DNA from: Anaeromicrobium sp. | GTDB lineage: Bacteria; Bacillota; Clostridia; Peptostreptococcales; Thermotaleaceae | Direction of reading: 5' to 3' | DNA length: 34,726 nucleotides | Assembly (NCBI RefSeq): GCF_025210435.1 | Contig: NZ_JAOART010000024.1 | Coordinates: 1 to 34,726, forward strand | Part shown: piece after piece, positions 6,614 through 33,346 of the stretch | How positions within the stretch are numbered: the first letter of the stretch is position 1 | How the letters are laid out: each line of letters begins with the position of its first letter | Translations under genes and position numbers: made by a program | Notes under the pieces: generated by a model | Database searches by the model: none | What the model was told of the DNA's origin: nothing | Seen by the model: only the letters and a program-made list of their open reading frames with translations

Positions 6614-8251
6614 TTATTTCATATCCATGAATCCAAAGAAATAGTGACCTAACTTAGTTCTTTGTAAGTTAACTAGATTTTCCCTTTCTAAGGCTGGTTG
6701 AGTGTAGTAATTAATTGGCATTACTATCATTTCATCCATCATCATCTTTTCTGCATCGTATAACATTTTAAATCTTTCTTCTCCAGTTGTTGACTTAGCC
6801 CCTTCAATTAGCCTGTCATACTCTTTATTTTTCCATTGAGCATCGTTATTTCCAGAGTAAGATAACCATAAATCTAACATGGTCATAGGATCAGCATAGT
6901 CTCCTAACCATCCAGCCCTTGCTATAGAGAAGTTACCATTGTGTCTTGTATCTTGGAATACTGCCCACTCTTGGTTTCTAAGGATCACATTTATTCCCAA
7001 GTTCTTTCTCCACATTTCTTGAACAGCTTCTGCTACAGCTTTATGTTTCTCATTAGTGTTATATATTAATTCTAATTCAGGGAAGCCTTCTCCATTTGGA
7101 TATCCAGCTTCAGCTAATAATGCCTTAGCTTCTTCCACTTGTGCTTTATTTGGATCAATTCCATAATTTCCAGCAACTTCTCTAAATTCTTTTCCATTAT
7201 TATCTACTAAGTTTGGAGGAACGAATCCAGTAGCAGGAATTTCTCCACCTAGCATTACATTTTCAACGATTTGCTTTCTATCTATAGCTAAGGTTAAAGC
7301 TTTTCTTACCCTCACATCATTAGTAGGCTCTTTTTCTACATTGAATATATAATAGTAAGTTCCAACATATGGGTAAATTCTAAACGCTGATTCTTCCTTT
7401 TGAAGTCTTGGAATTTCTTGTAGAGGTATTTCAGATTCAACAAAATCAATATCTCCACTCTCATAAGCTGCCAATGAAGTAGACTGATCTACTATCATTA
7501 AAACTTCTGATCTATCAATCATAACTTTGTCCGCTTGCCAATAATTTTGATTCTTTTCTAAAACAATCTTATCCCCTAAATGGTACTCTGTTAAAATGAA
7601 TGGTCCATTTGATACTGCAGTTTCAGGGTTAATAGCCCATTTTGCTGGATCCTTATCTACCATATCCTTTCTTGCTGGCATGAAAGTATAAAATGCTGTT
7701 AATTCTAAGAAATACTGTGTAGGAGCAACTAATGTTACTTCTAAAGTCTTCTCGTCTATAACCTTAATAGCCACATCGTCTAAGGTCCCTTTTCCTTCAT
7801 AGGCATCTTGAGCACCTTCTATGTAGAATAATTGAAATGCATATTCAGCTGGTTGTGGAATTAAGTTAGGATCTAGGGCTCTCTTCCATCCATATTCAAA
7901 ATCAGATGCAGTTATAGGCTGGCCATCTGACCACAAAGCATCTCTTAATTTAAATGTATAAGTCTTTCCATCTTCACTTACTTCATAACTTTCAGCTACT
8001 GCTGGAACAATCTTTCCATCTACTTCTCTCATTAAACCTTCGAAGGTATTTGTAATAATCATACCTCCATCATGGGCACTATTTTGTTGTGGATCTAGTG
8101 TTTTTGGCTCAGTACCTAGATTCCATTTAAATACTTTTTCTGCTTTAGCCTCTTCTTTAACTTCTCCTGTTTCAGGCTTGCTACCACATGCTGCAAAAGA
8201 AGTTATAACTAGCATGAAGATAAGGATCAGTGATAATGATTTTTTCAACAC
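6614..8251 (-). CDS. oppA: Oligopeptide ABC transporter substrate-binding lipoprotein, copy 1
   Basis: This 545-residue SBP_bac_5 family lipoprotein binds oligopeptides outside the membrane and delivers them to OppBCDF. The start is a GTG with GGAGGG 7 bases upstream. The signal peptide ends in a lipobox (SFAAC near residues 17-21). Family landmarks are WNLGTEPKTLDPQQN, a run near residue 90 starting YTFKLRDALWSDGQPI, and NGPFILTEY near 215. It is a close paralogue of the copy at 15611-17233: most residues match and the C-terminal half is nearly collinear. It sits alone, outside the opp operon, after the surface-protein pair. It may widen the peptide range or be regulated separately; this is not shown by the sequence. 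Confidence 0.93.
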   Translation of the reverse strand: MLKKSLSLILIFMLVITSFAACGSKPETGEVKEEAKAEKVFKWNLGTEPKTLDPQQNSAHDGGMIITNTFEGLMREVDGKIVPAVAESYEVSEDGKTYTFKLRDALWSDGQPITASDFEYGWKRALDPNLIPQPAEYAFQLFYIEGAQDAYEGKGTLDDVAIKVIDEKTLEVTLVAPTQYFLELTAFYTFMPARKDMVDKDPAKWAINPETAVSNGPFILTEYHLGDKIVLEKNQNYWQADKVMIDRSEVLMIVDQSTSLAAYESGDIDFVESEIPLQEIPRLQKEESAFRIYPYVGTYYYIFNVEKEPTNDVRVRKALTLAIDRKQIVENVMLGGEIPATGFVPPNLVDNNGKEFREVAGNYGIDPNKAQVEEAKALLAEAGYPNGEGFPELELIYNTNEKHKAVAEAVQEMWRKNLGINVILRNQEWAVFQDTRHNGNFSIARAGWLGDYADPMTMLDLWLSYSGNNDAQWKNKEYDRLIEGAKSTTGEERFKMLYDAEKMMMDEMIVMPINYYTQPALERENLVNLQRTKLGHYFFGFMDMK

Positions 8252-8398: not shown

Positions 8399-8440
8399 AA
8401 TAAGGATATTTCCCCATATGGTAGGAAATATCCTTATCTT
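8399..8440 (-). terminator. Strong terminator after the surface-protein operon
   Basis: A perfect 13-bp stem (TAAGGATATTTCC at 8401 with GGAAATATCCTTA ending at 8436) is flanked by T-rich sequence on the minus strand. It ends the SLH/HID operon. Confidence 0.9.
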
Positions 8441-8448
8441 TTATTATA

Positions 8449-11400
8449 TTATTTATCGGTTTTTATTTCTAAAGTAAAGGTAATATCCTCATATCCTGTA
8501 GATTTTATAGTCATAGTATAGGTTCCCTTCTTAATATTTTTTATAAACCCATCCGTATGTGGAAATAAGTTTTTATCAAGAGTTATATAATAATTATGGC
8601 TTAACATTCTCTTTTCAATCTTATAATTTTCATTTTTGCCATTACTATTTCCATTAAATATAAACTCTGTGATATTACTTTTCCATTCTTCATCATGATT
8701 TTCTATTTTAAAGTCCACAGATCCCCATATTTCATAATCCTTCACTTCATCATTTATACTAGGAGCGTCTTTAAGCACTTCTTCATCTGCCTCTACAATT
8801 ACCTCTCTAGTTACTTCGTCTGCTGTATTTCCAGCCTTATCTGATACATTGTAGTGGATAGTATAAGTACCTACAACTGAAGTTTCTATTTTATCTACTG
8901 ATTTTCCTTCCTTTGTATAAGTAACTACTGCCTTTAAATCTTTATCCTTATTATCTGTAATAGTTACTCCCTCATCATCGTAATCATTTCCCTTTTTCAC
9001 AGTTACACTACTGTTTCCTTTTAATTGAATTAGAGGTTTTTCTGTGTCTGATTCTTCTGTAGGTTTTGAACTAGAATCCTTTTCTTTTACTATTATATGT
9101 AATTCTTTTTCCTCATAACCTTCCCCCTTTAAAATAATTGTATATTTTTTAGGAGTTTTAAAGTTATTATAATCTAATATTACATAGTAATAATCATCAT
9201 CTAACTTTTTAATTTCATAATTAGCATCTTTTCTCTCTATTTCTATAGTTCCCTTTTCTAAGGCATCTTTATACTTTTCTGGACCACTAAGCCAAGAATC
9301 ACCTATTTTAATCTCTAGGTCTTCACCCTTATAAATACTTTCTGTTACTGTCATAACAGATGATGGAACGGACTTTTTCTCAACTTCTGGGTTGGATGGT
9401 TCTTCTTTCTTTACATATTTCACTGTATAAGATTCACTAGATTTTAATCCATCCTCATCTGTAGTCTCTATAGTAATACTATTGTTACCTTCTTCTAAAG
9501 TCACTTCATACTCAATAGTACCAGCATTTGGTGTAACCTCAGTATTATTTAATTTCACTACTGGATTAATTTTTTCTCCTGAAACTGAATCTGTTGTTTT
9601 TACTGTGAATTTAAATACTTGACTATTTACTGTTTCATCAGATAGATTTGTTGTAATCTTTGGTGCTACTTTTTTCACTTCTTGGGATACTGTTGTATTT
9701 TTAAATCCATTGACAATAATTTCTATCTTATATGTTCCAAATGTACTAAATAGTGAAGCATTAAATGTTAATTTTCCATCTTCCCTTTGAACCTTATTTA
9801 ACTCCTTAGACTCTAAAGACCTATTATTTATCTTTATTTCTTGGATATTATTAATCCATCCACCACCATGGCTAAATGTTATTTCCATATCTTTTCCTAG
9901 ATAATTATCTGTTGTATCTGCATTTAACTGTGGAGCATCATGGTTAAATTGTGGTATTTCTTCTCCTGTTACGGTTATGTTAAATACTTTGTCCTTATAT
10001 CCAGCTGCCTTAAGTACTATTTCATAATCTCCAGGTTTATTGAAGTTTTTGCCTTTTATAGTAACATTTATAGGACTAATAGTTACTTTACTATCTCCAC
10101 TTAATTTTTCTTGTCCTAAGTATACTTCTGCTACCTTATATCCATCTATTTGAGATGGAACTTGTGATAAATCAATAACCAGGTCATTTCCAGTTCCTAT
10201 TTGGCTACCTCCCTGTAATCTAACCTGAGCAGGCACATCCTTAGGATTTGTTACCATGAATTTTATAGTTGATTCTTTATATCCATCTGCAGTGAATTTG
10301 ACAGTTACCTCACCTGGCGTATCGAATACAGAACCCTTTATTATAAACTTTCCATGTGAAGTGTTTGTATAGTAATCCGTATCTTTTGTTAAGGTCTTAC
10401 CATTTACTACTATTTTGTTTATGGCCTTAGTCCACTCACTTCCTTGAATAGCTAAATTCTCTGTTTTATTAATATGTTTAATATGTAAAAGGCTTGGTGG
10501 TGTTAATAATTGTCCTGGTTTGTCTACACCTATTTCTTTTACTATTTTTTCACTTATTTGTCCATCTTCATATCCATAGGCTACTATTTTTACAGCATAT
10601 GTTTTTGCTTCCTTAAATAAGCCTCCATCAATGATTATCTTACCCTTTAATATTTTAACTTTATCCTCTGGTACTTTAGAATCATCAATGGTAATTTCTT
10701 GTATACTTGTTCTAAAGTCTTGACTATCAGCAAAAGTAATTTCCACATCTTCTCCTAATTTAGTTTCTGGTGCTGAATTTAATGGAATTGCTGATTTTTT
10801 AACCCCTACAAATTCACTAGTAAAATCCTTTACTGGCACATTAAATTCTGCTTTTTCATATCCACCTGCTAAAACTTCAATTTTATAATTTTTTTCTTCA
10901 GAAACTACTTCCTTATTAATAAGAACTGACAATAGTTCCTTTGTATATTTTTCATTATCTATTACCACATCATTAACTTTCATTTCTTTTATGGCATCAA
11001 TCCATCCATATTGATTAACTGGAACACTTATCTTCACTCCATCTGTTGTGTTTGCCTCTGTTACAATAAAGTCTGGTAGACTTCCTACCATATGCTGAGT
11101 AAGCTCTAAATCTATATAATTTGTTGCTTTTATAACTATCTTATTACTTCCTTTTCTAAATACAGAAGAGTTTATAGTTATCTTCCCCTCATCTATTGAA
11201 TATTTCTCTCCATTTATGCTAATGTTTCCTACTACTATTTGGGTTATGGCTTCTCTCCACTTAGGATTATCATTTTCCCATGTAATTACCACATTTTCAC
11301 CTAAAGTACGCTTTGTAGTTTTAGCCCTTGGTACCACATCATTTATTGGATCAATTACAACATTTCCTTTTTCTAATATGAATTGTAACATTTCTTCTTC

Positions 11401-13251
11401 ATATCCATAGGATTTCATTGTAAGTGTTTGTCGGCTTTCGTCCTTAAATAAATTTTTATTTAATACGATCTTATTATTTTCAACTTTGTATCCCCAATTT
11501 CCTGATCCTACAGCTTCTTTGCTTAATAGTCCCTTTCCATTTAACATTACACTTTGAATATTTTTTGCAAAATCTTCTGTAACTCCTAATACGTTTATAT
11601 TTTGTCCTGTTTTATTTGTATCTGGATCAATGGATAAATCAATTGAAGATTTTTCAACGGATACATTCACCTTTGTGTCTTTGTATCCATTAGCCATAAT
11701 AGTAACTATATTCTTTCCCCTAGTAAATCTAGTACCTTTTAATTCTATTTCTCCATGACCCACTGTATACTCACTATCAAATAATATAGTTGATCCCACT
11801 TTGATACTTTCAATGGCATTTGCCCATTTTTCATCTGTAAATATAAGTTTTACCTTTTCTCCTAATTTTCCATCTTCAGGAGTAATAGAAGGTGCAGAAG
11901 GTAAATCTATTTGATTAAATGGTTGAACTTCACCATATAGACCATCTTCTAATACATATTTTACATTATATGGTCTATTCTCATAATCCTGAGCATTAGG
12001 GTCTTTTAAATAATCTTCAAATGTAACATGTTTATCCTTAGCCTGAGCATCTAAAACTCCATTAGTAAATCCACTCCATGCTACTATTCTATTTTCTCCA
12101 TCCTTTGTGGCAGCATCCTTGTGAGCACCATTCCAAACTGCTAGTACACTTTTTGAATTTTCTGTTTCTTTACCTATCTTTTGAAGAATTTTGGCATTTG
12201 AAACTAATTCAAAATCAAATACTAAATTGGCTAATTGGTCTAAACTTCCACCACCGCCTTCAGAACCTCCGTCAGAGCCACCTCCTCCAGATATGGACGC
12301 TCTACTTATAGCATCTATGGCTGGGGATTGGTGTGGACTTGACACTTGGCTTAAACTTGGTGCACTTTGAATTTCATTATCATGGTTTGTAGCAGGTAAT
12401 CCATAAGTTCCATCATTTTCTACTACTTTAAAGGTCTTTACAAAGTCTTTGTAACCCTTTGCCCTTATAGTTACCGTGTGTGTACCCTTAGTAATTTTTT
12501 CTAAAGCTTTATTTTCCAGTCTAACTATGTTAGATACCACATGGTACTCTTCACAATCACCTTTTAATTTTTCACCATCTAAAAGCACTTCATATATGGG
12601 ATTTTTCACTCTATAATTAAAATCTTTAAGTACAAACAATAAATCTAATCCTTCTACAGGCTTATAATCTGGATGTATTTCAAGTGTACCTTCTTCCACT
12701 ATATGTATAGTTATATTCTTTGTCTCATATCCTGTAGCATATATTTTTAATCTGTGCTCTCCATTAAAATCTATTGGCCTTGAATCACTATATAATGTAA
12801 TTTTTCCATCCTCTATTTTAAAATTCACATCTGACTCTAGGTTTTGATTCCCTTCTACATAATCAGATTTTCTTGTTATTCTATATATATTACTCTGCCA
12901 TTGTTTTGCCTCTACTTCATTATCATCAAAGGTTATCTCCACATGATCTCCATAATCCGTATCCTTTGTATGTAATTCTGGTATTCTATGGTCTACCGCT
13001 ACTTGTCCTTCGTTTTCCGTATCAAATAATACAGTTTTAGGCTCAATTCTTATTGTTCCATCTTTACCATAGTTTACTTGATGATAATCCCACTTTTTCA
13101 CAGTCTTATGGGCATGTATTTTACTTGGAGCTGCATATACAGAACTTGCAGATGTTAAAATCTGTGTGGCTATTAATGCAGCTGCTAATTTTTTATTAAG
13201 GTTTTTATTAAGGTTTTTATTAAGGTTTTTATTAAGGTTTTTATTAAGCAT
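8449..13251 (-). CDS. Giant secreted multi-domain surface protein with Shr HID-like (DUF1533) repeats
   Basis: This 1600-residue exported protein starts at an ATG with AAAGGAG upstream and has a signal peptide ending near SASSVYA (residues 34-40). Most of it is a chain of about 100-residue beta-rich units, each ending in a pattern like Y.V.I.A.GY.D (for example VTIRAKGYKDF, IVTIMANGYKDT, VVLKAAGYKDK-like). I read these as Shr hemoglobin-interacting domains (HID, old DUF1533), roughly a dozen units. A Gly/Ser linker (near residues 320-335) and a different domain (near 335-440) separate the first two units from the rest. An Ig-like unit lies near 1210-1290 and a DUF5011/cadherin-like unit (VGTYTIHYNVSDKAGNTADE) near 1410-1490. 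No LPxTG motif, SLH domain, NEAT domain or C-terminal membrane anchor is visible. It follows the SLH gene by 77 bp and is probably cotranscribed from a Fur-box promoter. Hemoglobin or heme binding is an inference from the domain family. Confidence 0.8.
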   Translation of the reverse strand: MLNKNLNKNLNKNLNKNLNKKLAAALIATQILTSASSVYAAPSKIHAHKTVKKWDYHQVNYGKDGTIRIEPKTVLFDTENEGQVAVDHRIPELHTKDTDYGDHVEITFDDNEVEAKQWQSNIYRITRKSDYVEGNQNLESDVNFKIEDGKITLYSDSRPIDFNGEHRLKIYATGYETKNITIHIVEEGTLEIHPDYKPVEGLDLLFVLKDFNYRVKNPIYEVLLDGEKLKGDCEEYHVVSNIVRLENKALEKITKGTHTVTIRAKGYKDFVKTFKVVENDGTYGLPATNHDNEIQSAPSLSQVSSPHQSPAIDAISRASISGGGGSDGGSEGGGGSLDQLANLVFDFELVSNAKILQKIGKETENSKSVLAVWNGAHKDAATKDGENRIVAWSGFTNGVLDAQAKDKHVTFEDYLKDPNAQDYENRPYNVKYVLEDGLYGEVQPFNQIDLPSAPSITPEDGKLGEKVKLIFTDEKWANAIESIKVGSTILFDSEYTVGHGEIELKGTRFTRGKNIVTIMANGYKDTKVNVSVEKSSIDLSIDPDTNKTGQNINVLGVTEDFAKNIQSVMLNGKGLLSKEAVGSGNWGYKVENNKIVLNKNLFKDESRQTLTMKSYGYEEEMLQFILEKGNVVIDPINDVVPRAKTTKRTLGENVVITWENDNPKWREAITQIVVGNISINGEKYSIDEGKITINSSVFRKGSNKIVIKATNYIDLELTQHMVGSLPDFIVTEANTTDGVKISVPVNQYGWIDAIKEMKVNDVVIDNEKYTKELLSVLINKEVVSEEKNYKIEVLAGGYEKAEFNVPVKDFTSEFVGVKKSAIPLNSAPETKLGEDVEITFADSQDFRTSIQEITIDDSKVPEDKVKILKGKIIIDGGLFKEAKTYAVKIVAYGYEDGQISEKIVKEIGVDKPGQLLTPPSLLHIKHINKTENLAIQGSEWTKAINKIVVNGKTLTKDTDYYTNTSHGKFIIKGSVFDTPGEVTVKFTADGYKESTIKFMVTNPKDVPAQVRLQGGSQIGTGNDLVIDLSQVPSQIDGYKVAEVYLGQEKLSGDSKVTISPINVTIKGKNFNKPGDYEIVLKAAGYKDKVFNITVTGEEIPQFNHDAPQLNADTTDNYLGKDMEITFSHGGGWINNIQEIKINNRSLESKELNKVQREDGKLTFNASLFSTFGTYKIEIIVNGFKNTTVSQEVKKVAPKITTNLSDETVNSQVFKFTVKTTDSVSGEKINPVVKLNNTEVTPNAGTIEYEVTLEEGNNSITIETTDEDGLKSSESYTVKYVKKEEPSNPEVEKKSVPSSVMTVTESIYKGEDLEIKIGDSWLSGPEKYKDALEKGTIEIERKDANYEIKKLDDDYYYVILDYNNFKTPKKYTIILKGEGYEEKELHIIVKEKDSSSKPTEESDTEKPLIQLKGNSSVTVKKGNDYDDEGVTITDNKDKDLKAVVTYTKEGKSVDKIETSVVGTYTIHYNVSDKAGNTADEVTREVIVEADEEVLKDAPSINDEVKDYEIWGSVDFKIENHDEEWKSNITEFIFNGNSNGKNENYKIEKRMLSHNYYITLDKNLFPHTDGFIKNIKKGTYTMTIKSTGYEDITFTLEIKTDK
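13189..13248 (-). repeat. 12-bp tandem repeat inside the signal-peptide coding region
   Basis: Four exact copies of the 12-mer GTTTTTATTAAG (plus strand) lie at 13201-13248, and one copy with a single change at 13189-13200. They begin immediately after the ATG of the giant surface protein and encode repeating Leu-Asn-Lys-Asn. A unit of 12 keeps the frame, so copy-number change would only lengthen or shorten the basic n-region. Confidence 0.95.
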
Positions 13252-13328
13252 AATAGACTCCTTTCAACTTCCGTTATTCTTGCATTTTTTAAATGAATCA
13301 ATTAAAATCCATCCTAAGGAGTTTCACC

Positions 13329-15374
13329 TTAATTAAATTTTATATGGATTTCCTTTGCTAGTCCTTCAAAATTATCTTGTATATTTTCAAACAAATCCTT
13401 TAATAATATTAATTTTATTACCTTAGAACCCCTTTGAATATGATTCGTTGCCTTTCCAACCATTTTTAGTTCTAAATTTTTATCGTCTAATCTGTTTATA
13501 TTTAACTTTAGTCCTGCTGGAACTGGTGTATCTTTAGGGATGCTAGCCCCTGTAATTCCATCTACATGTCCAGAATTAATAGCTGATGAAAATTTCACAT
13601 TCTTATCTTCTTTTATGGATAATTTAATGCTATTTTCAATGGCTCCATCATTTCTTTTAGTCTCTTTAAATTCTAATCCTTGGAAAATCAAATCTCCTAT
13701 TGTTAAGTCTTCTTTTTCTTTTATAAGGTCCTTTTCTCCAAACTTAAATGTTTCTTCTTCATTTCCATTTTTGACCTTTAACTCTTTAATATCTTTTTTA
13801 GATACTTCTGTTTTTAAAATAGTTCCCTGTTTATTTACCCTTTTCATGTTTACAGCTTTACCATCTAAGTAAAACTCGTAACCATCTACATTCCCCTTCT
13901 TTAAAGTCACAACAGCATATAGTACACTTTCGATTTCCATTATTTCTGTTCTATATGTGTCTATAATTTTATATCCATTATCTGGCTCTGGTTTTGAAGA
14001 TGAACTTGAGGATGAACTTGAGGAACTTCCTCCACCTCCGCCTCCGCCACCTGAAGGTCTTTTCTTCGATGCTGAAGTTTTTCCATCTATTTTGTCTTCA
14101 CTTTTCTTAATTCCCTTACCTTTTATATATATTTTTTGATTTTTTGCAACTTTCTTACCGTTTATTTTTACTTCTTTACCTTGAACTTTCAAATCATCTA
14201 TCTTACCTTCATTTTTTATCTCAATCTCTTTAACTGTTTTCCCAATCTCTAATTTCTTTATGTTAGAATCTTTCATCACTTCTATTTTGGCATTTTTTTC
14301 CATCTTCATGCTATCTACTTTTGTATTATCTTTTAATACAACACGTACTTTACCATCCTTTTTAGCAACTACAACTTCCCCAACTGATGAATTACTAAAG
14401 TAGATACTATTAAGACCCCCACCTTCTATAAAAACCTTCCCTAATATATGGGAGTTGTTTATTTCAACGTCTCCATCACCTATACCTTCTGTTAAATATA
14501 AGTTTCCTTTAACTTTTATATTTTCTAATATGATTCCTTGCCTATTTACAACTAAATTAGATGAAATAACCTTGTCCTTATAAGTTCCCTTTGTATTGTA
14601 TAGTTCTCCCATAGTATTATTTAATATGGATATACCTTCTGCTCTAGATAAGAGTTTTTTAGGTTTAAAAGTATTATCTTCATATCCACTTAAGTATTTG
14701 TTCCCTACTAATATGCCTATGTTATCTCTTGCATAGGATGCAATCTCTTTAGAGTCTTTAAAGGTTAATTTACTATGATCATGGCCATCTAATTTGAAAG
14801 CATTAACTACCATAGTACATGCTTCTTCCCTTGTTATATACTCATTAGGCTTAGCTAATAATTTTCCATTTATTTCATAACCCCTAAATATTCCAGCTTC
14901 TTTTCCCTTTAACATAGGTTCTTCATACCATTTAGAGGAATCTATATCTTCAAATATATTCTCACTCTTTTCTTGAAGTCTTAATATTTTTCCTATGATA
15001 GTTATGAATTCTGCTCTGGTAACAGATTTATCTGGCTTTAGGGTACCATCTTCATATCCACTTATTATTCCCTTTGATTTTAACTTACTCATCATGCCAT
15101 AGGCCCAATGATTTTCTTCCCCTAATTCCTTTTGTATATTTACATGTTTTTCTTCTATCTTTTTATTAATCTTCTTTTTCTTATCTATGATCCTTTTTAC
15201 TGGTTCTTTAGCTTTAGTGATTTTTTTTACGCCTTCCTTTGCAGTATCTTTTTTAGATGCACTAGATGTACTATCTGGCAAACTAGCATTGGCAAAAGAT
15301 GCACTAGTCATAGATCCGAGTATTAGTAGTGCTGTAAAGACATAGATTACAGTTTTTTTCATGTAACACTCCAT
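13329..15374 (-). CDS. SLH-domain surface protein with poly-Gly/poly-Ser linker
   Basis: This 681-residue exported protein is predicted to be held on the cell wall by S-layer homology domains. A signal peptide covers about residues 5-29. Three SLH domains follow: near 90-135 (HWAYGMMSKLKSKGIISGYE), 145-195 (with GIFRGYEING) and 200-255 (with YLSGYEDNTFKPKKLLSRAE). Residues ~265-430 are a repetitive beta-rich region (NLVVNRQGIILENIKVKGNL), then a linker of 8 Gly and 11 Ser, then a C-terminal beta-rich region of unknown family. The start at 15374 has AAGGAGG seven bases upstream; a second ATG four codons later (MKKTVIYV) also has GGAG and is possible. It is the first gene after the Fur-box promoter and could anchor or present the giant HID protein, which lacks its own anchor. 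That partnership is inference. Confidence 0.85.
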   Translation of the reverse strand: MECYMKKTVIYVFTALLILGSMTSASFANASLPDSTSSASKKDTAKEGVKKITKAKEPVKRIIDKKKKINKKIEEKHVNIQKELGEENHWAYGMMSKLKSKGIISGYEDGTLKPDKSVTRAEFITIIGKILRLQEKSENIFEDIDSSKWYEEPMLKGKEAGIFRGYEINGKLLAKPNEYITREEACTMVVNAFKLDGHDHSKLTFKDSKEIASYARDNIGILVGNKYLSGYEDNTFKPKKLLSRAEGISILNNTMGELYNTKGTYKDKVISSNLVVNRQGIILENIKVKGNLYLTEGIGDGDVEINNSHILGKVFIEGGGLNSIYFSNSSVGEVVVAKKDGKVRVVLKDNTKVDSMKMEKNAKIEVMKDSNIKKLEIGKTVKEIEIKNEGKIDDLKVQGKEVKINGKKVAKNQKIYIKGKGIKKSEDKIDGKTSASKKRPSGGGGGGGGSSSSSSSSSSSKPEPDNGYKIIDTYRTEIMEIESVLYAVVTLKKGNVDGYEFYLDGKAVNMKRVNKQGTILKTEVSKKDIKELKVKNGNEEETFKFGEKDLIKEKEDLTIGDLIFQGLEFKETKRNDGAIENSIKLSIKEDKNVKFSSAINSGHVDGITGASIPKDTPVPAGLKLNINRLDDKNLELKMVGKATNHIQRGSKVIKLILLKDLFENIQDNFEGLAKEIHIKFN

Positions 15375-15402
15375 TTCATAGCCTCCTTATAATCTTATGT
15401 AT

Positions 15403-15417
15403 CGATAATGATTATCG
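15403..15417 (-). promoter_or_regulatory. Fur box
   Basis: CGATAATGATTATCG is a perfect 7-1-7 palindrome and contains the classic GATAAT-N-ATTATC core of Fur operators. It lies about 16 bp downstream of the -10 hexamer and about 28 bp upstream of the SLH gene start, a position from which bound Fur would block transcription. This predicts repression by iron. Confidence 0.8.
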
Positions 15418-15433
15418 TTACCAACATTTTTAT

Positions 15434-15462
15434 ATGATACCACACTGGTTTTGACATATCAA
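15434..15462 (-). promoter_or_regulatory. Sigma-A-type promoter of the SLH/HID operon
   Basis: On the minus strand TTGATA (15462-15457) and TATCAT (15439-15434) are separated by exactly 17 bp. The Fur box follows directly downstream, near the expected transcription start. Confidence 0.65.
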
Positions 15463-15568: not shown

Positions 15569-15603
15569 AAAAAAAACTAGGAAATTATATTTCCTAGTTT
15601 TTT
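15569..15603 (-). terminator. Terminator after the opp operon
   Basis: AAAAAACTAGGAAA, loop TTATA, TTTCCTAGTTTTTT is a near-perfect hairpin with a T tail, just after the oppA stop at 15611. It separates the opp operon from the Fur-box promoter region. Confidence 0.9.
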
Positions 15604-15610
15604 ATTTAAC

Positions 15611-17233
15611 TTATCCTTGTATATCAGCAAATCCAAAGAAGAAATGTCCAAGTGGAGTCATTTCCCAACCTGTTACTTCAGGTTTAACTAATACTTTTTT
15701 AGTATAATAGTAAATTGGCATTACTATCATTTCATCCATCATCATCTTCTCTGCATCGTATAACATCTTAAATCTTTCTTGTCCAGTTTTTAACTTAGAA
15801 CCTTCAATTAAGTTATCATATTCTTTACTATCCCATTGTGCATCATTGTTTCCTGAATAGGATAACCATAAATCAAGCATTGTCATAGGGTCAGCATAGT
15901 CTCCTAACCATCCAGCTCTGGCTATGGAGAAGTTTCCACTATGTCTAGTATCTTGGAATACTGCCCACTCTTGGTTTCTTAATTCCACACTGATACCTAG
16001 GTTTTTTCTCCACATTTCTTGAATAGCTTCACCTATTGCCTTATGTCCTTCTGAAGTATTATATAGTACTTCTGCTGCTGGGAATCCTTTACCATCTGGG
16101 TATCCTGCTTCAGCTAATAATTTCTTAGCTTCTTCCAGATCAGAAGTTTCTTTAATTCCATAATCTCCTGCTACAGTTCTAAACTCATTACCTTCTGCAT
16201 CTAATAATCCCGGCGGTACAAATCCAGTTGCAGGAAGTTCTCCACCCTTAGATACGTTTTCAGTTATTTGCTTTCTATCTATAGCCAATGTTAAAGCTCT
16301 TCTTACCTTTGGATTATCAAATGGAGCTTTAGTTACATTGAATATATAGTAGTAAGTTCCTATGGAAGGCTTAATTTCAAATCCTGAATTTTTATCTTCT
16401 AAAAGTCTTGGTATTTCTTGAGGCGGTACACTTCCTTCATTAGCATGGATATCTCCTGATTCATATGCTGCTAAGTTAGTAGAATAATCAACTATCATAA
16501 ATGCTTCGATTTTATCCATTTTCACCTTATCAGCTTGCCAATAGTTTTCATTTTTCTTTAATACAATCTTATCTCCTAAAAGATATTCACTTAAAGTAAA
16601 TGGTCCATTTGATACGGCAGTTTCTGGGTTTGTTGCCCATTTAGCTGGATCCTTTTCTACCATATCCTTTCTTACTGGCATGTAAGTATAAAATGCTGTT
16701 AACTCTAAGAAATATGGTGTTGGAGCTATTAACTCAACTTCTAGGGTCTTGTCGTCTATAGCCTTAATTGCCACATCATCTAAACTTCCTTTACCCTCAT
16801 AGGCATCTTGAGCACCTTTAACATAGAATAATTGGAATGCATACTCTGATGGTTGTGGAATTAAGTTTGGATCTAATGCTCTTTTCCAAGCATACTCAAA
16901 GTCTCCTGCAGTAATAGCCTGTCCATCAGACCACTTTGCATCTCTTAATTTAAATGTATAAGTTTTACCATCTTCACTAATTTCATAACTTTCTGCTACT
17001 GCTGGTGTTACCTTTCCATTCACTTCTCTCATTAAGCCTTCAAAAGTATTGTTAATTACGTGTCCACCGTCAGCTGCACTGTTTTGCTGTGGATCTAGTG
17101 TTTTTGGCTCTGAACCTATGTTCCACTTTAATACTTTTTCACCTTCTACTACTTCTTCTTTCCCTCCACAACCTATTAATGTGGTAAATGCTAGCATTAA
17201 TACCATTGCCAAGGCAAGTATTCTTTTAGTCAT
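15611..17233 (-). CDS. oppA: Oligopeptide ABC transporter substrate-binding lipoprotein, copy 2
   Basis: This 540-residue SBP_bac_5 lipoprotein is the last gene of the opp operon, 79 bp after oppF. The ATG has GGAGGG upstream; the lipobox is TTLIGC near residue 22. It shares the landmarks of copy 1 (WNIGSEPKTLDPQQN, YTFKLRDAKWSDGQ, NGPFTLSEY, ARAGWLGDYADPMTMLDLW) and differs most in the region 260-300 and at the extreme C-terminus. Because it lies with oppBCDF, it is the natural partner of that transporter. Copy 1 lies about 7.4 kb away, with the SLH/HID pair in between. Confidence 0.95.
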   Translation of the reverse strand: MTKRILALAMVLMLAFTTLIGCGGKEEVVEGEKVLKWNIGSEPKTLDPQQNSAADGGHVINNTFEGLMREVNGKVTPAVAESYEISEDGKTYTFKLRDAKWSDGQAITAGDFEYAWKRALDPNLIPQPSEYAFQLFYVKGAQDAYEGKGSLDDVAIKAIDDKTLEVELIAPTPYFLELTAFYTYMPVRKDMVEKDPAKWATNPETAVSNGPFTLSEYLLGDKIVLKKNENYWQADKVKMDKIEAFMIVDYSTNLAAYESGDIHANEGSVPPQEIPRLLEDKNSGFEIKPSIGTYYYIFNVTKAPFDNPKVRRALTLAIDRKQITENVSKGGELPATGFVPPGLLDAEGNEFRTVAGDYGIKETSDLEEAKKLLAEAGYPDGKGFPAAEVLYNTSEGHKAIGEAIQEMWRKNLGISVELRNQEWAVFQDTRHSGNFSIARAGWLGDYADPMTMLDLWLSYSGNNDAQWDSKEYDNLIEGSKLKTGQERFKMLYDAEKMMMDEMIVMPIYYYTKKVLVKPEVTGWEMTPLGHFFFGFADIQG

Positions 17234-27944: not shown

Positions 27945-28736
27945 TTATTTGACCAACTTAGTTTCCCCCATACCCATAGTAGTTTTATATCCCGTTCCAC
28001 AGAATATGGAAAAACCTATCAAATTATTTATTATATCCTTTGTATTTTCATCTAATTTCCCATCTATTTCATAATAGGATTTTCCCCTAAATCCTACAAT
28101 CTTATATTGAGACATGTTCATTATTTCTGTGTTTATATTGTGCCTTATACAGAAGCAATTTTCTTTAATAATTTCTAACACTTGTTCATCTATACTATAT
28201 TCTTCTCCCACAACATTATTCCATCTACTCATATAACTCTTAAATATATGGGCCACATCTGGAAACAAGTAGTTTCTCCCCAATTTTCTAAAGCTTGTGG
28301 GAGATAAAAACTCTAATGCAAATCTATTATTTTTTATATTTCTTTTATTTTTCATCTCATCAATGGACATGACTTCTTTCAGATTCAAATTTTTAATAAT
28401 AAAATTTATATTCCCAATGGAAATTATTTTTTTATTTATGATATATTTATATACAATATCATAAAAGGCTTTAAATAAATTTTCATCTAAAAAAGATCCC
28501 TCTAGGGATACCTTCTCACCTGAGCTTATGTAATATATCCAGTTTTTTAATTTTTTGCTCCTTAGTATGGATACGGTATAGGGTTTGGCATTGTTCATAT
28601 TATGTAGCTTTTCACTCAATTCTTCATCTTGTTCTTTTAATAGTTTAAAAAACATACCATGAACTAACCTTCCATTACCATAGGCTAACGTACCATCATT
28701 TAAAGCTTCTAATTCTATACTCACTTTAGTAAACAA
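27945..28736 (-). CDS. cas6: CRISPR repeat endoribonuclease Cas6
   Basis: This 263-residue RAMP-fold nuclease is expected to cut the repeat RNA and leave the 8-base ATTGAAAC 5' handle on crRNAs. The N-terminal RRM-like half starts FTKVSIELEAL with MVHGMFFKLL-like spacing near residue 27 (GRLVHGMFFKLLKE). The C-terminal Gly-rich loop reads FCGTGYKTTMGMGETKLV, a hallmark of Cas6. The start is TTG at 28736 with GGGAG just upstream. Length is typical. It lies 26 bp after the cas1 remnant, and a decayed second copy of its 3' half lies on the other side of the array. Confidence 0.9.
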   Translation of the reverse strand: MFTKVSIELEALNDGTLAYGNGRLVHGMFFKLLKEQDEELSEKLHNMNNAKPYTVSILRSKKLKNWIYYISSGEKVSLEGSFLDENLFKAFYDIVYKYIINKKIISIGNINFIIKNLNLKEVMSIDEMKNKRNIKNNRFALEFLSPTSFRKLGRNYLFPDVAHIFKSYMSRWNNVVGEEYSIDEQVLEIIKENCFCIRHNINTEIMNMSQYKIVGFRGKSYYEIDGKLDENTKDIINNLIGFSIFCGTGYKTTMGMGETKLVK

Positions 28737-28762
28737 ATTTCTCCCACCATTTCATCATTATT

Positions 28763-28910
28763 TTATATAAAAGAATCTAATAGGCTAAAATATAATTTTG
28801 CCTCTAATCCTTCATATCCCCTTAACTCATGAATATTTTCCTCTACTTGTTCTGAATTACAATTTCTATTATATCTCATAAGGATAGTTCTTTCACTTTT
28901 TAATTTTCCC
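28763..28910 (-). pseudogene. cas1: cas1 remnant
   Basis: On the minus strand, joining GKIKK at the end of the cas4 frame with the next frame gives ERTILMRYNRN, then SEQVEENIHELRGYEGLEAK and LYFSLL, ending at a TAA at 28763. This matches mid-Cas1 sequence (GKIKNQRT-LMRYNR, later L-GIEG-AAK-YF). The first ~90 residues, the stretch between the two matches, and the whole C-terminal integrase region with its metal-binding residues are missing. It lies between cas4 and cas6, the usual place for cas1. Confidence 0.8.
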
Positions 28911-29429
28911 TTCACATCTATTGTCATTTATGGGTGGAGGAATTATTTCTTCTTCTATTATTTTATTTGCATTTTCTATTGCATTAATTGTAAGTTCCCT
29001 TAGTTCCTCAGTAAAATATACCTCTCCTTTTTCATAGGAACTTGAATAGTATATATATCCCTTTTCTAAGGATACATTCATATTCGCCTCTATTAAAAGG
29101 GCTTGGCAGCAAAGTTGTACATGATCATTAATGTTATTTTGTTTTTTCCCTTTTTTATATTCTACAGGATAATATTGACCATCCTTTTCTTCTATCTCAT
29201 CTAATACACCTACCATATTATACTCTTCTGATTCTAGATATACATTTCTGATTTTACTCCTTTCCCTAGTTTTTAATTTTTCTTTTTCATTTCTTTTATT
29301 TTCTTCTATTTTCCCTTTCAATACATGATGGTTATAGTCATTTGCCTTTTCCATAACCCTATAGTAGAAGTTACGAGGGCAGTACAAAATTTCACCTATG
29401 GCCGATATAGGTATTCTTATTCTTTCCAT
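28893..29429 (-). CDS. cas4: Truncated Cas4 fused in frame to a cas1 scrap
   Basis: Cas4 is a RecB-like nuclease with a four-Cys iron-sulfur cluster that prepares prespacers for Cas1-Cas2. Here the 178-residue frame keeps the first cluster Cys (C17, EILYCPRNFYYR), the nuclease residues D77 (GVLDEIE) and E90-x-K92 (PVEYKKGK), and Q109 (CCQALLIE). At the C-terminus it has PPPINDNRCE, one Cys of the usual RCxxCxxxxxC, and then GKIKK, which belongs to Cas1. The last two cluster cysteines are gone, so the product is probably inactive or unstable. AAGGAG precedes the ATG. Its leader carries a degenerate CRISPR repeat. Confidence 0.8.
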   Translation of the reverse strand: MERIRIPISAIGEILYCPRNFYYRVMEKANDYNHHVLKGKIEENKRNEKEKLKTRERSKIRNVYLESEEYNMVGVLDEIEEKDGQYYPVEYKKGKKQNNINDHVQLCCQALLIEANMNVSLEKGYIYYSSSYEKGEVYFTEELRELTINAIENANKIIEEEIIPPPINDNRCEGKIKK

Positions 29430-29444
29430 TCTTACATCTCCTTA

Positions 29445-29476
29445 GATTCCCAAAGGGAATTAGTATTTATTAGATT
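29445..29476 (-). repeat. Orphan degenerate CRISPR repeat in the cas4 leader
   Basis: GATTCCCAAAGGGAATTA keeps the palindromic core of the array repeat, and the following TAGTATTTATTAGA resembles the rest of the repeat. It lies 16 bp upstream of the cas4 start, just before its ribosome binding site, and about 110 bp from the array end, with a terminator in between. Confidence 0.75.
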
Positions 29477-29538
29477 CTGCATAAGAATCTGTTATCTAAA
29501 GATTCTCCAATAATCATTCTTTTAATTCATGTATTATG

Positions 29539-29578
29539 AAAAAAGGTTATTACCTTGTAAGCGGCAATAACCTTTTTT
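29539..29578 (-). terminator. Terminator at the distal end of the CRISPR array
   Basis: AAAAAAGGTTATT pairs with AATAACCTTTTTT around a 14-base loop. With transcription on the minus strand it lies just beyond the last repeat and would end the pre-crRNA. Confidence 0.8.
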
Positions 29579-29587
29579 GTATCTCAT

Positions 29588-30852
29588 ATGTAAATTCCCA
29601 AAGGGAATTATATGTTCTTCTAACGATACAGTGATGGAAGATAAAGTGGACCTGAAGAAGAGTTTCAATTCCCAAAGGGAATTATATGTTCTTCTAACAA
29701 GGAAGGTTTTCGTTCTTTGGTATAGGTAAAAAGGAAGTTTCAATTCCCAAAGGGAATTATATGTTCTTCTAACAAAAGGATATAAGTGTATTCTTAGCTA
29801 TAATAAATGCTTTGTTTCAATTCCCAAAGGGAATTATATGTTCTTCTAACCTTTAGAAAATAGATTGATACCAAAGGTTACAAAATCTACTCGTTTCAAT
29901 TCCCAAAGGGAATTATATGTTCTTCTAACTAAGAGAAGTTAATAATGACTTTCAAGACGCCAATATATTTGTTTCAATTCCCAAAGGGAATTATATGTTC
30001 TTCTAACGTAATAGATGCTATAGTTTGGTTATCGGTCCGAATTGTACGTTTCAATTCCCAAAGGGAATTATATGTTCTTCTAACATAAAATGGTCAGGGA
30101 ATCATCACACCAATAAAAGTTCAGTTTCAATTCCCAAAGGGAATTATATGTTCTTCTAACAGGAATCAATTATAATTGATTAGAATAACTGGAATTGAAC
30201 AGTTTCAATTCCCAAAGGGAATTATATGTTCTTCTAACAAAGATATTGATGATAATTTATTTGAGTTTCCTAAAAAACAGTTTCAATTCCCAAAGGGAAT
30301 TATATGTTCTTCTAACGTGAAAATTATAAAAAAGGATTAACTACTAAAGAATATAAGTTTCAATTCCCAAAGGGAATTATATGTTCTTCTAACTTGTTTT
30401 ATTGTTGTTACTGAGAAATTTAATTTTGATAGTTTCAATTCCCAAAGGGAATTATATGTTCTTCTAACTAAATATCATCTTAGAGGAGATAAGTTAAGCC
30501 GAGCAGAGTTTCAATTCCCAAAGGGAATTATATGTTCTTCTAACTAAAAATATTAGCTAAATTAAAAAACAAAGAAGAAATAAAGTTTCAATTCCCAAAG
30601 GGAATTATATGTTCTTCTAACTGAAATTAGATTTAGCACAAATGAGAAAAAATGTAATAGCGTTTCAATTCCCAAAGGGAATTATATGTTCTTCTAACAT
30701 GAAGCTTCAACAGTTTATGAATTAAGGAACGTAGAAAAAGTTTCAATTCCCAAAGGGAATTATATGTTCTTCTAACATAATGGCAGAACATGGACAGGCT
30801 ATTAAATGCGAAATAGTTTCAATTCCCAAAGGGAATTATATGTTCTTCTAAC
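29588..30852 (-). CRISPR. CRISPR array, 17 repeats of 37 bp, 16 spacers
   Basis: Full repeats start at 29662, 29737, 29814, 29893, 29971, 30048, 30124, 30202, 30280, 30357, 30432, 30508, 30585, 30662, 30740 and 30816; a first copy at 29588 differs in three of its first five bases. On the plus strand each starts GTTTCAATTCCCAAAGGG and ends ATGTTCTTCTAAC. Read on the minus strand the repeat ends ATTGAAAC, the usual type I-B/III crRNA handle, so transcription runs from 30852 to 29588, as for the cas genes. The degenerate copy at the distal (left) end agrees. Spacers are 37-42 bp and no two look alike. The handle and the neighbouring Csm genes fit type III-A use. Confidence 0.98.
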
Positions 30853-31028
30853 TCTACCCATCTGAAACCATTGGAATCACTGGGCTAATTTCCCCAAATG
30901 CGAGGGTCTCACTTTTTTCATGAAATTTCACCTATGTGATTTAACAAAAACCAACTCAATCCCAGTAATATACTCATCGAGGGTCTCCAGGCTTTTTTCC
31001 TACGCAAAGACCCTCGCAAAATATTTAT
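30853..31028 (-). promoter_or_regulatory. CRISPR leader with repeated CGAGGGTCT motif
   Basis: This 176-bp gene-free stretch abuts the leader-proximal, intact repeat. CGAGGGTCT occurs at 30901 and 30978 on the plus strand, and AGACCCTCG at 31008 on the minus sense. The last two form a 9-bp stem; the outer pair is 11 bp with flanking TG/CA. Nothing here codes for protein. Confidence 0.7.
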
Positions 31029-31211
31029 TTAACCAAGATAGTTTCTAGTTCCACAAAACATGGAAAAACCTATTAATTTATTCATTATATCCTTTATATT
31101 TTCATCTACCTTCTTCTCTATTTCATAATAACATTTTACTTAAAATCTTACAATCTTATATTGTGATATATTCATAATTTCTGTATTTATGTCATGTCTT
31201 ACGCAAGAACG
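31029..31211 (-). pseudogene. cas6: cas6 3' remnant
   Basis: The minus strand reads RSCVRHDINTEIMNISQYKI then VRF, stop, VKCYYEIEKKVDENIKDIMN and LIGFSMFCGTRN. This closely matches the C-terminal part of the intact Cas6 (CIRHNINTEIMNMSQYKI, YYEIDGKLDENTKDIINN, LIGFSIFCGTGY). DNA similarity to about 27999-28160 is plain by eye. An internal TAA (31140-31142), loss of the Gly-rich loop, and absence of the first two thirds make it a pseudogene. It lies between csm4 and the leader. Confidence 0.9.
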
Positions 31212-31241
31212 GCTTTCTAAAACCTATGAAAGATATACACT

Positions 31242-32171
31242 CTAATTCAAATCTATTTCTTCTATATATGCTGGTATACTTAAGGAATATCCACATTGAA
31301 CAACCTGTGGATGCTCATAGCTTATATTTGATACTAATCTTCCATAATAATCCTTTACTTCAGTTGTCCAAAAAACAGCACCAGGCTTTATCATTAACAC
31401 AGGTCTTTTGAAAGGATTTGCTGATAAGGCATATCCTTGTCCCAATTTAGGATGTTTTATAAACGTTTTGTATTGTCCTCTCGTAGGGTCTTCTTCTTTG
31501 GGTACATAATTTGATAAATTTACGAAACAATTCACTTTATCAGGAATTTTAAACCCTTGAAATTTTTCTATTTCCTGTATGGAGAACTGTCCTTTCCCTG
31601 TTGAAATCTTCTTTCCAAAACCTGTGATAGACAATCTTTTAAATAGGTCAAATAACTTATCTTTATACTCATCCTTCACCTTCACATATATAGATATATG
31701 ACCTTCATCTAAGAAATACTCATTTTGTTCATATAAAGATCCTTCAATAGTAGCATCTGAAAATCTAGAAATAGAATTATGCATAGTTCTTGTTTGCTTT
31801 TCTTTATTTTCTTTTGATTTTATGATAACCTCTCTGTTGTTTATAATAGAATTAAATTCATCTATTGTTAACCAATCTATTTTCTTATTCTGTTTTTCCA
31901 ATTGCATATGCTTTAATATATCAGATTTACTTCCTTTCATATCTTCTAAAGATATTTTCCTTGCCACGGGTTTAGGTAATAAATCATTTATAAACCCATT
32001 TGAAACTACGAAAGGAACATTATTTTGTCTATATCCTTGTAAAAATTCTTTTAGTACCTTCTCTCCTTCATAATTTGCAATAACCCAACATAAACTCCCA
32101 AATATAGTATCGCTTTGCCACGGTGTAATATAGCTGGATTTAGGTTTTATTTTTATCCTATATAATTCCAT
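31242..32171 (-). CDS. csm4: Type III-A effector subunit Csm4
   Basis: This 309-residue Cas5-like RAMP protein caps the crRNA 5' handle and contacts Cas10. The N-terminal part (YRIKIKPKSSYITPWQSDTI then FGSLCWVIANYEG) and SNGFINDLLPKPV are typical of Csm4, as is the central KQTRTMHNSISR. A Gly-rich segment (LSITGFGKKISTGKGQF near residue 180) follows. The ATG has AAGGAG upstream, and the gene lies 11 bp after csm3. Length is normal. Instead of csm5, the gene is followed by a decayed cas6. Confidence 0.9.
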   Translation of the reverse strand: MELYRIKIKPKSSYITPWQSDTIFGSLCWVIANYEGEKVLKEFLQGYRQNNVPFVVSNGFINDLLPKPVARKISLEDMKGSKSDILKHMQLEKQNKKIDWLTIDEFNSIINNREVIIKSKENKEKQTRTMHNSISRFSDATIEGSLYEQNEYFLDEGHISIYVKVKDEYKDKLFDLFKRLSITGFGKKISTGKGQFSIQEIEKFQGFKIPDKVNCFVNLSNYVPKEEDPTRGQYKTFIKHPKLGQGYALSANPFKRPVLMIKPGAVFWTTEVKDYYGRLVSNISYEHPQVVQCGYSLSIPAYIEEIDLN

Positions 32172-32182
32172 AATTACACTCC

Positions 32183-32872
32183 TTAAATAGTAAACTCTTC
32201 TCCATTTAACTCCATATCTATAAACTTAACCTGTCCATATCCTCTACTTCCTGACCCGCCTAAATATGAATTTTCTACAGATTTTAAGGATTCTTTTAAG
32301 AAATTTTTCATTCTTGTTTCATCATCATTCTTAAAAATTTGTAGGACTATTTCTAAATCAAATTTAGCCCCTGATGGTACTCTTTCAATGTATCTAAAAT
32401 CATTTGATGTTCCATTATTTCTATTTATAATATTCTCTATTTTCACCTCTAAATATGGTTTTCCGCTTTCCTTCATAAACTTATTCATGTCTCTCCTAGT
32501 ATCTTCATTCATAACTGCATCTCTTATTAACATTCTAGTAGGCCCTAAGTTATGACTTGTATTTTTATGTGCTCCAAACATAGTACATATCTCACAATTT
32601 TTGTCACCACACCCACAAGGTTCTCCAATCTTTATTTTCTTGCCCCTAATTTGTTTTTCTTTTATATTCACTTTCCCTCTAATTTTTTCCATTTGAGAAC
32701 GCATCTTTCCTTTTAGTGATGATCCTGGTATATACGGTTCATTTGTTATTGGATGTTTTATAACCTCATTGTCTATACCTCCAATATCTATTCCTTCAGA
32801 GTTTCCTCCAATAAATAGCCCTGTAATACACTTGATTTTTCCTTTTACTATTAAAACTTTATCTAATTTCAT
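32183..32872 (-). CDS. csm3: Type III-A backbone nuclease subunit Csm3
   Basis: This 229-residue Cas7-like RAMP forms the filament along the crRNA and cuts target RNA at 6-nt steps. D34 in IGGIDNEVIKHP corresponds to the known catalytic Asp (Csm3 D33). Also visible are PYIPGSSLKGKMRSQME near residue 45, a Cys cluster CGCGDKNCEICTMFG near 87 that probably binds zinc, and the C-terminal GGSGSRGYGQVKF Gly-rich loop. All key parts are present, so target-RNA cleavage could still work if the complex assembles. GGAG precedes the ATG. Confidence 0.95.
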   Translation of the reverse strand: MKLDKVLIVKGKIKCITGLFIGGNSEGIDIGGIDNEVIKHPITNEPYIPGSSLKGKMRSQMEKIRGKVNIKEKQIRGKKIKIGEPCGCGDKNCEICTMFGAHKNTSHNLGPTRMLIRDAVMNEDTRRDMNKFMKESGKPYLEVKIENIINRNNGTSNDFRYIERVPSGAKFDLEIVLQIFKNDDETRMKNFLKESLKSVENSYLGGSGSRGYGQVKFIDMELNGEEFTI

Positions 32873-32909
32873 AATTAATACACTCCTATATTATTTATTA
32901 TTTACAACA

Positions 32910-33344
32910 CTAAAGGTAGTACGTAAAGTATGCTACTACCGCTTGAAAATGAGGTATAAATCCTTCAATAATATCCTTTTTATTTTGTATGTTATTAATA
33001 TTCATGCATACAAACTTATAAAACTCCTTCGTAACACTTTGATTACTATTCTTTTTACTACTTGCATAATGAACAGCAGCTTTTAACTTTGCAATCTCCA
33101 AAACAAATCTTTCCTCATCAAGTTCTAATCCACTTACACAATATACACGTTCCATAGTTTTTACATATCCATAAAACTTCCTCAGTTGATTAACTGTCAT
33201 TCGCTTACCAAAACTTTTTGCAACTTTTTCTGCTATTTCATCTATTAATTCTTTTCTTAAATTACCATTTTCATTAAAGTAACCATTTGCCAAATAGCCC
33301 ACTGGAAAATTTGACCTGATGTGTTTATTATCTGATTTACCCAT
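32910..33344 (-). CDS. csm2: Type III-A small subunit Csm2
   Basis: This 144-residue, mostly helical protein forms the inner filament along the target RNA. The family segments MTVNQLRKFYGYVKTMER (near 49), KLKAAVHYASSKKN (near 86) and the C-terminal FIPHFQAVVAYFTYYL are clear. The ATG has GGGGAG upstream, two bases after the cas10 stop, so the genes are translationally linked. A 37-bp gap separates it from csm3. Confidence 0.92.
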   Translation of the reverse strand: MGKSDNKHIRSNFPVGYLANGYFNENGNLRKELIDEIAEKVAKSFGKRMTVNQLRKFYGYVKTMERVYCVSGLELDEERFVLEIAKLKAAVHYASSKKNSNQSVTKEFYKFVCMNINNIQNKKDIIEGFIPHFQAVVAYFTYYL

Positions 33345-33346
33345 AA

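Follow-up and report, generated by a model that had tools for sequence, protein, structure and literature searches.

The window analysed here is the whole stretch of 34,726 nucleotides from an Anaeromicrobium sp. contig, and it carries on its minus strand an operon of two genes. The upstream gene (13329-15374) encodes a protein of 681 aa with SLH domains, hereafter the SLH partner, while the downstream gene (8449-13251) encodes a protein of 1600 aa with a long row of HID (PF07550) repeats, hereafter the HID chain. Ahead of both lies a promoter-like TTGATA-17-TATCAT sequence with a TG extension (15434-15462, minus strand), found by sequence scan, and behind this promoter stands a perfect 15-bp Fur-type palindrome, CGATAATGATTATCG (15403-15417), which has two mismatches to TGATAATNATTATCA and lies with its end 28 bp upstream of the ATG at 15374. 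A likely terminator, read by eye on the minus strand (8400-8437), follows the HID gene, with a perfect 14-bp stem, a T-rich tail and a 10-base loop that is too long for the rule of our stem scan; the scan itself reports a terminator-like stem upstream of the operon (15571-15603). The first-pass annotation had described a two-gene SLH/HID operon behind a 17-bp-spaced promoter and a perfect Fur palindrome, with the anchor on the partner protein, and had proposed profile searches of both proteins. The open reading frames, the Pfam searches and the site scan bear out this anatomy.

The SLH partner begins with a signal peptide, recognised by eye, and matches SLH (PF00395) in three stretches (E 6e-31, 106.6 bits, cut-off 20.8) that cover about aa 85-265 (14580-15122, limits approximate). 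A motif scan found three flavinylation-like motifs in it: DSTSSAS directly after the signal peptide (aa 34-40, 15255-15275), DGKTSAS ahead of a Gly/Ser linker (aa 430-436, 14067-14087), and the canonical ApbE motif DGITGAS (aa 605-611, 13542-13562). The C-terminal part consists of two modules that we call a (about 79 aa, 13737-13973) and b (125 aa, 13332-13706). DGITGAS lies within b, between predicted strands.

The HID chain matches PF07550 in 12 stretches (E 2e-137, 448 bits, curated cut-off 22.3). Repeats 1 (12700-12969) and 2 (12427-12612) are followed by a further motif, DAISRAS, degenerate at the Gly position (aa 313-319, 12295-12315), and by a family-defining domain that we call FDL (about aa 336-455, 11887-12246). 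Behind FDL come repeats 3 (11656-11874), 4 (11386-11628), 5 (11089-11325), 6 (10828-11055), 7 (10543-10764), 8 (10252-10452), 9 (9967-10137), 10 (9673-9927) and the weak repeat 11 (9088-9342), then a bacterial surface Ig-like domain (PF16403, aa 1408-1486, 8794-9030) and repeat 12 (8464-8718). At the start of the gene (13190-13251), in-frame 12-bp tandem repeats encode five LNK(N/K) units, possibly a start of variable length.

Relatives of the operon

Among 298 genomes taken from the order, 45 contain PF07550, and from 19 of these 45 we sampled 20 regions, together with 13 loci from named genomes. A class-wide search matched five of 391 genomes, the window's own included, and added four further loci. 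With four duplicates dropped, 29 non-redundant proteins share the FDL domain. Neither FDL nor the a and b modules match Pfam; structure prediction gives FDL an alpha/beta fold and b an ordinary Ig-like sandwich, with no known flavin domain among the structure matches listed for b. The named carriers of FDL and HID include a Tepidibacter MAG, Clostridioides mangenotii, Clostridium sp. CCUG 7971, Clostridium tarantellae, [Clostridium] symbiosum, Lacrimispora celerecrescens and, oddly, Zooshikella ganghwensis, a gammaproteobacterium. The contig labelled with this last name (L062) has an a-module and FDL/HID pair, either by horizontal transfer or by contamination.

In 14 of the 29 loci, the a module of the partner is fused to the HID/FDL chain as one polypeptide, and in those fusions whose sequence was read through, the a module runs directly into the sequence that opens the separate HID protein. 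In 12 others the a module lies in the gene adjoining the FDL/HID gene, and in three (L037, L046, L047) the profile did not find it. The fusions support the view that the SLH partner and the HID chain form one two-part unit. The three loci missed by the profile belong to family f11; by eye, the C-terminal end of their SLH partner resembles a divergent a module, and their HID chains have motifs such as DVITGATVDAVS near the N-terminus.

Fur-type sites

Site number gives nothing in favour of Fur control. Promoter-like matches in the region are no more frequent than expected (48 vs 58), exact GATAATNATTATC sites occur eight times in the 3.96-Mb genome, as does the reversed control, and one-mismatch Fur-type sites are rarer than their control (63 vs 118). 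The company of the sites is more telling. Two of the seven other exact sites precede feoAB operons (FeoB confirmed by family search), one lies 19 bp before a flavodoxin gene and one opens a Zn/Mn-type ABC operon, the flavodoxin and the binding protein again being identified by family search. The remaining sites, with genes read by eye, are found inside a coding frame, before an RND-efflux-like operon and before rpsD. Flavodoxin is an iron-sparing flavoprotein.

Boxes with at most two mismatches, no more than 150 bp upstream of the first gene, were found at 10 of the 29 orthologous loci, compared with 13 of 324 other ORFs. These ten comprise nine of 25 loci (the window, L031-L033, L039-L042 and L061) and one of the four class-wide loci (L149). 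A box inside the operon of L038 was left out of the count, and the 19 loci with no such box include two, L063 and L067, for which a contig edge at the start of the locus prevents a judgement. Because of the company of the sites (feoAB, flavodoxin, the ABC operon) and the conservation of boxes before orthologues, the operon is probably regulated by Fur and switched on at low iron.

Flavinylation motifs and the apbE link

Flavins are electron-carrying vitamin derivatives. According to the available part of PMC12052999, ApbE puts FMN on the last residue (Thr or Ser) of D-x-x-[S/T]-G-A-[S/T], replacement of Gly by Ala in this motif cuts the flavinylation of one model protein to about half, and Thr is a better flavin acceptor than Ser. 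The motif of the operon proteins equals the published one, save for a frequent Ser in place of Gly. In the form D-x-x-[S/T]-[G/S]-A-[S/T], it is present 28 times in 39 HID or partner-like proteins, where composition shuffles give an expectation of 0.52, and the 265 other ORFs in these regions have it a single time.

The position of the motif recurs as well. Ahead of FDL, a loose form is found in 27 and a strict form in 18 of the 29 non-redundant proteins. Since the motif was first noticed in the earlier sequences, the later-fetched loci are the cleaner test: among the non-duplicate loci from named genomes, eight of nine have the loose and seven the strict form, and among the class-wide loci three of four and one of four, respectively. 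The FDL profile was built from an alignment that includes the motif columns; the nine named-genome loci, which lie outside that alignment, match the profile with E values between 5e-36 and 4e-50, and L062, which has no motif, is one of them. All 14 aligned sequences keep the Asp of the motif, while the linker around it is otherwise variable and predicted to be disordered (model residues 245-294). None of the seven HID ORFs that lack FDL has the motif; one of these seven is short and adjoins an FDL chain.

In the window's own chain, DAISRAS, with Arg at the Gly position, may be weak as a flavin site, and the best candidate would be the canonical DGITGAS in the b module of the partner, a protein whose export is read by eye from its signal peptide. 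The genome encodes one ApbE (301 bits). FMN_bind (PF04205) is absent from the Pfam lists of both operon proteins at E values up to 1, and the only match in the genome lies elsewhere, in an rnf operon read by eye.

ApbE also serves RnfG-type proteins. Because of this, and because the genome has the rnf FMN_bind protein, the presence of ApbE alone, found in 15 of 15 multi-HID genomes searched, proves little. In five of the 29 loci (L039, L040, L042, L045 and L063), the next gene downstream of the HID gene is apbE, for the FMN transferase, and the four searched genomes with such an operon apbE each have a second one elsewhere. Moreover, in four genomes with the two-gene layout of the window and no adjoining apbE (G000, G091, G195 and G236), the only apbE found stands behind a Fur-like box with one mismatch, located 26 bp before the start in G000 and G091 and 40 bp before it in G195 and G236. 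Each of these pairs shares a genus, with two families in all, so that four out of four are not four independent events and maybe only two. The other 18 apbE genes of the multi-HID set have no box of up to two mismatches within 400 bp directly upstream. Similarly, in 15 operon-less genomes of the window's family, a Fur-like box precedes none of 20 judgeable apbE entries (of the 21 found, L135 begins at a contig edge; it and L141, both from G112, may be the two ends of a single gene). Two results fit the link poorly: in seven of the 15 multi-HID genomes, namely G199, G174 and G234 of family f4 and all four of family f11, apbE is neither boxed nor in the operon, and the ApbEs of HID loci do not form one clade.

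Discussion

Much of what the first-pass annotation had read at this locus holds: predicted Fur control, an SLH anchor on the partner, no NEAT domain found in the genome and a two-part unit. Its proposed function, the capture of hemoglobin, gains no support from these results, and it had missed the flavinylation motifs and the apbE link. Because both proteins carry likely flavin attachment sites, the operon looks more like an iron-reducing, iron-freeing surface device than a simple hemoglobin trap. We favour, with a probability of roughly 0.6, the reading that it encodes an iron-starvation-induced, S-layer-anchored and covalently flavinylated complex that reduces ferric iron for the co-regulated FeoAB transporters.

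Under plentiful iron, Fur, whose binding to the palindrome we infer, would repress the operon. Once iron becomes scarce, the SLH partner would anchor the unit in the wall and use its C-terminal modules to hold the HID chain. FMN would be loaded on the DxxSGAS-type sites of the partner, DGITGAS being the best of them, by the single ApbE detected in this genome, whose gene also stands behind a Fur-like box; the enzyme would perhaps also flavinylate the degenerate site before FDL in the HID chain. Electrons from the membrane would then travel through the flavins to ferric iron, whether this is free or bound in heme or hemoproteins held by the Ig-like HID chain, and the resulting ferrous iron would be taken in by FeoAB. 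As for the electron donor, the genome has the rnf operon, but nothing links it to the HID operon. The degenerate motif of the chain and the Ser that replaces Gly in two of the three motifs of the partner speak against flavinylation. It is also tempting to speculate, rather more tentatively, that the operon encodes a capture-and-reduce receptor, in which the HID chain would hold ferric or heme proteins while covalent flavins on the b module, on the linker before FDL and on the wall-side linkers reduce the iron on the spot; Fe2+ would pass to FeoB, and apbE, whether in cis or in trans, would have been recruited to the Fur regulon for loading of the flavins. If true, such a receptor would be a new class of iron-acquisition machine.

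The simpler proposal, a NEAT-free wall trap whose HID repeats bind hemoglobin or heme and pass heme to an importer with no redox step, now seems improbable to us. Membership of PF07550 speaks for it, as do the best PDB matches of the HID profile, which are the Shr HID2 structures 6dkq and 7cud (E 0.001). However, PF07550 (formerly DUF1533) is not specific for hemoglobin; it is also reported in an SLH beta-glucanase (available part of PMC4765114), and the model of two HID repeats shows generic Ig-like domains. Among the contact residues given for Shr HID2 (R196, Y197, Q209, I224, S225 and M238; available part of PMC10912661), only Q209 can be compared, as the alignment does not reach R196 and Y197, and the loops that hold I224, S225 and M238 cannot be aligned; its position holds Q in none of 11 comparable repeats, with one repeat gapped. 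A search of the genome (93% complete) for NEAT (PF05031) gave no match, while the same search was positive in G244 (4e-26). In addition, the three strong FecCD operons of the genome have neither a Fur-like box nor an IsdE-level binding protein, their binding proteins scoring far below the IsdE cut-off, and a trap would leave the flavinylation motifs and the apbE link unexplained. A role for heme is nevertheless possible, because in one relative (L044) an IsdE-like binding protein (274 bits, cut-off 298.65) is encoded behind a Fur-like box in an operon adjoining a fused HID gene.

The motifs and the apbE link would also suit a flavinylated system of extracellular electron transfer to some other acceptor, respiratory or detoxifying, that is expressed at low iron as flavins replace iron-containing cytochromes, with iron uptake not its purpose. 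The exact site of the same kind before flavodoxin fits this idea, and the available part of PMC8238504 notes that multi-flavinylated clusters containing SLH proteins are likely to be redox systems of the wall. We regard it as unlikely: the HID chains point to iron, as do the IsdE-like binding protein and a FeoB-like gene, recognised by eye, at L044, and no cytochrome or reductase partner stood out when the loci were read. Less likely still is an S-layer adhesin or stalk, in which HID repeats and the a and b modules would be Ig-like spacers and the DxxSxAS peptides would mark some other modification or processing. The predicted Ig-like folds, the Gly/Ser linkers that surround several motifs and the use of PF07550 as an accessory module of a surface glucanase (available part of PMC4765114) agree with such a structure, but it explains neither the apbE directly downstream in five loci nor the contrast between Fur-boxed apbE genes in four of four genomes and in none of the 20 entries from operon-less ones.

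Two further sets of genes met in these searches may act on tetrapyrroles or cobalt. At L044:269-6194, a Fur-boxed operon encodes a NifH-like protein, the IsdE-like protein, two nitrogenase-component-like proteins and, by eye, a permease and an ATPase; the operon may provide a nitrogenase-like enzyme whose substrate is an imported tetrapyrrole. At L118:3021-6685 and L119:124-5204, FecCD operons adjoin CbiK-type cobaltochelatases, one of them with a lipoprotein-like N-terminus by eye, and have no Fur-like boxes just upstream; these transporters probably serve cobalt or cobamide uptake.

From IlsA and BslK, NEAT-SLH surface proteins of Bacillus, the operon differs in that it has no NEAT domain, combines an HID chain with flavinylation motifs and places the anchor on a separate gene. 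The likeness to such Bacillus proteins lies in an iron-regulated surface protein for heme or iron (IlsA; available part of PMC2777315). Shr of Streptococcus pyogenes consists of two HID domains, a linker, NEAT1, LRR and NEAT2 (available part of PMC10912661) and is likewise an iron-related surface protein with HID repeats; in contrast, the operon has no NEAT domain, 12 instead of two HID repeats, an SLH anchor on a separate partner, a Q209 position that is not kept, and flavinylation motifs with an apbE link.

Also comparable are the ApbE-flavinylated extracytosolic and multi-flavinylated wall proteins (available parts of PMC8238504 and PMC11334425), with which the operon shares DxxSGAS-type motifs, an apbE in cis or apparently co-regulated, and a wall-binding domain; PMC8238504 mentions SLH proteins that lack annotation within multi-flavinylated clusters. 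The operon departs from these proteins in having no FMN_bind match, motifs in linkers and in an Ig-like module, an HID chain and Fur-like boxes. The terms DUF1533, Shr and NEAT do not occur in the main text of PMC8238504, nor do DUF1533, SLH and hemoglobin in PMC11334425. The P19/FTR1-associated system is also comparable, since flavinylation is proposed there to serve iron uptake in Gram-positive bacteria (available part of PMC8238504), while the carrier here would be an S-layer HID chain. The literature already describes iron systems that are flavinylated, and multi-flavinylated clusters that contain SLH proteins (available part of PMC8238504). A Fur-linked HID chain with flavinylation motifs, a, b and FDL modules and an iron-boxed apbE did not appear in our literature search, which had limited coverage.

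Pfam's hemoglobin-interacting label for PF07550 rests on a streptococcal protein, and it would mislead if these chains are flavinylated and iron-regulated. Tepidibacter, Clostridioides mangenotii, [Clostridium] symbiosum and similar anaerobes may then have a NEAT-free surface route for electrons to iron. Moreover, under our preferred reading one would expect new substrate modules of ApbE and an ApbE that is controlled by iron.

The surroundings of the operon have features of their own. Two genes for binding proteins that are of OppA type and very similar by eye (6614-8251 and 15611-17233) flank it, as if the operon had been inserted between copies, and G091 (L031) has the same layout. Further along the window, a CRISPR-Cas region (27945-34702) encodes Cas6, a Cas4-like protein, a RAMP protein and part of Cas10, and includes an array of 16 repeats of Rfam type CRISPR-DR63 (29662-30852).
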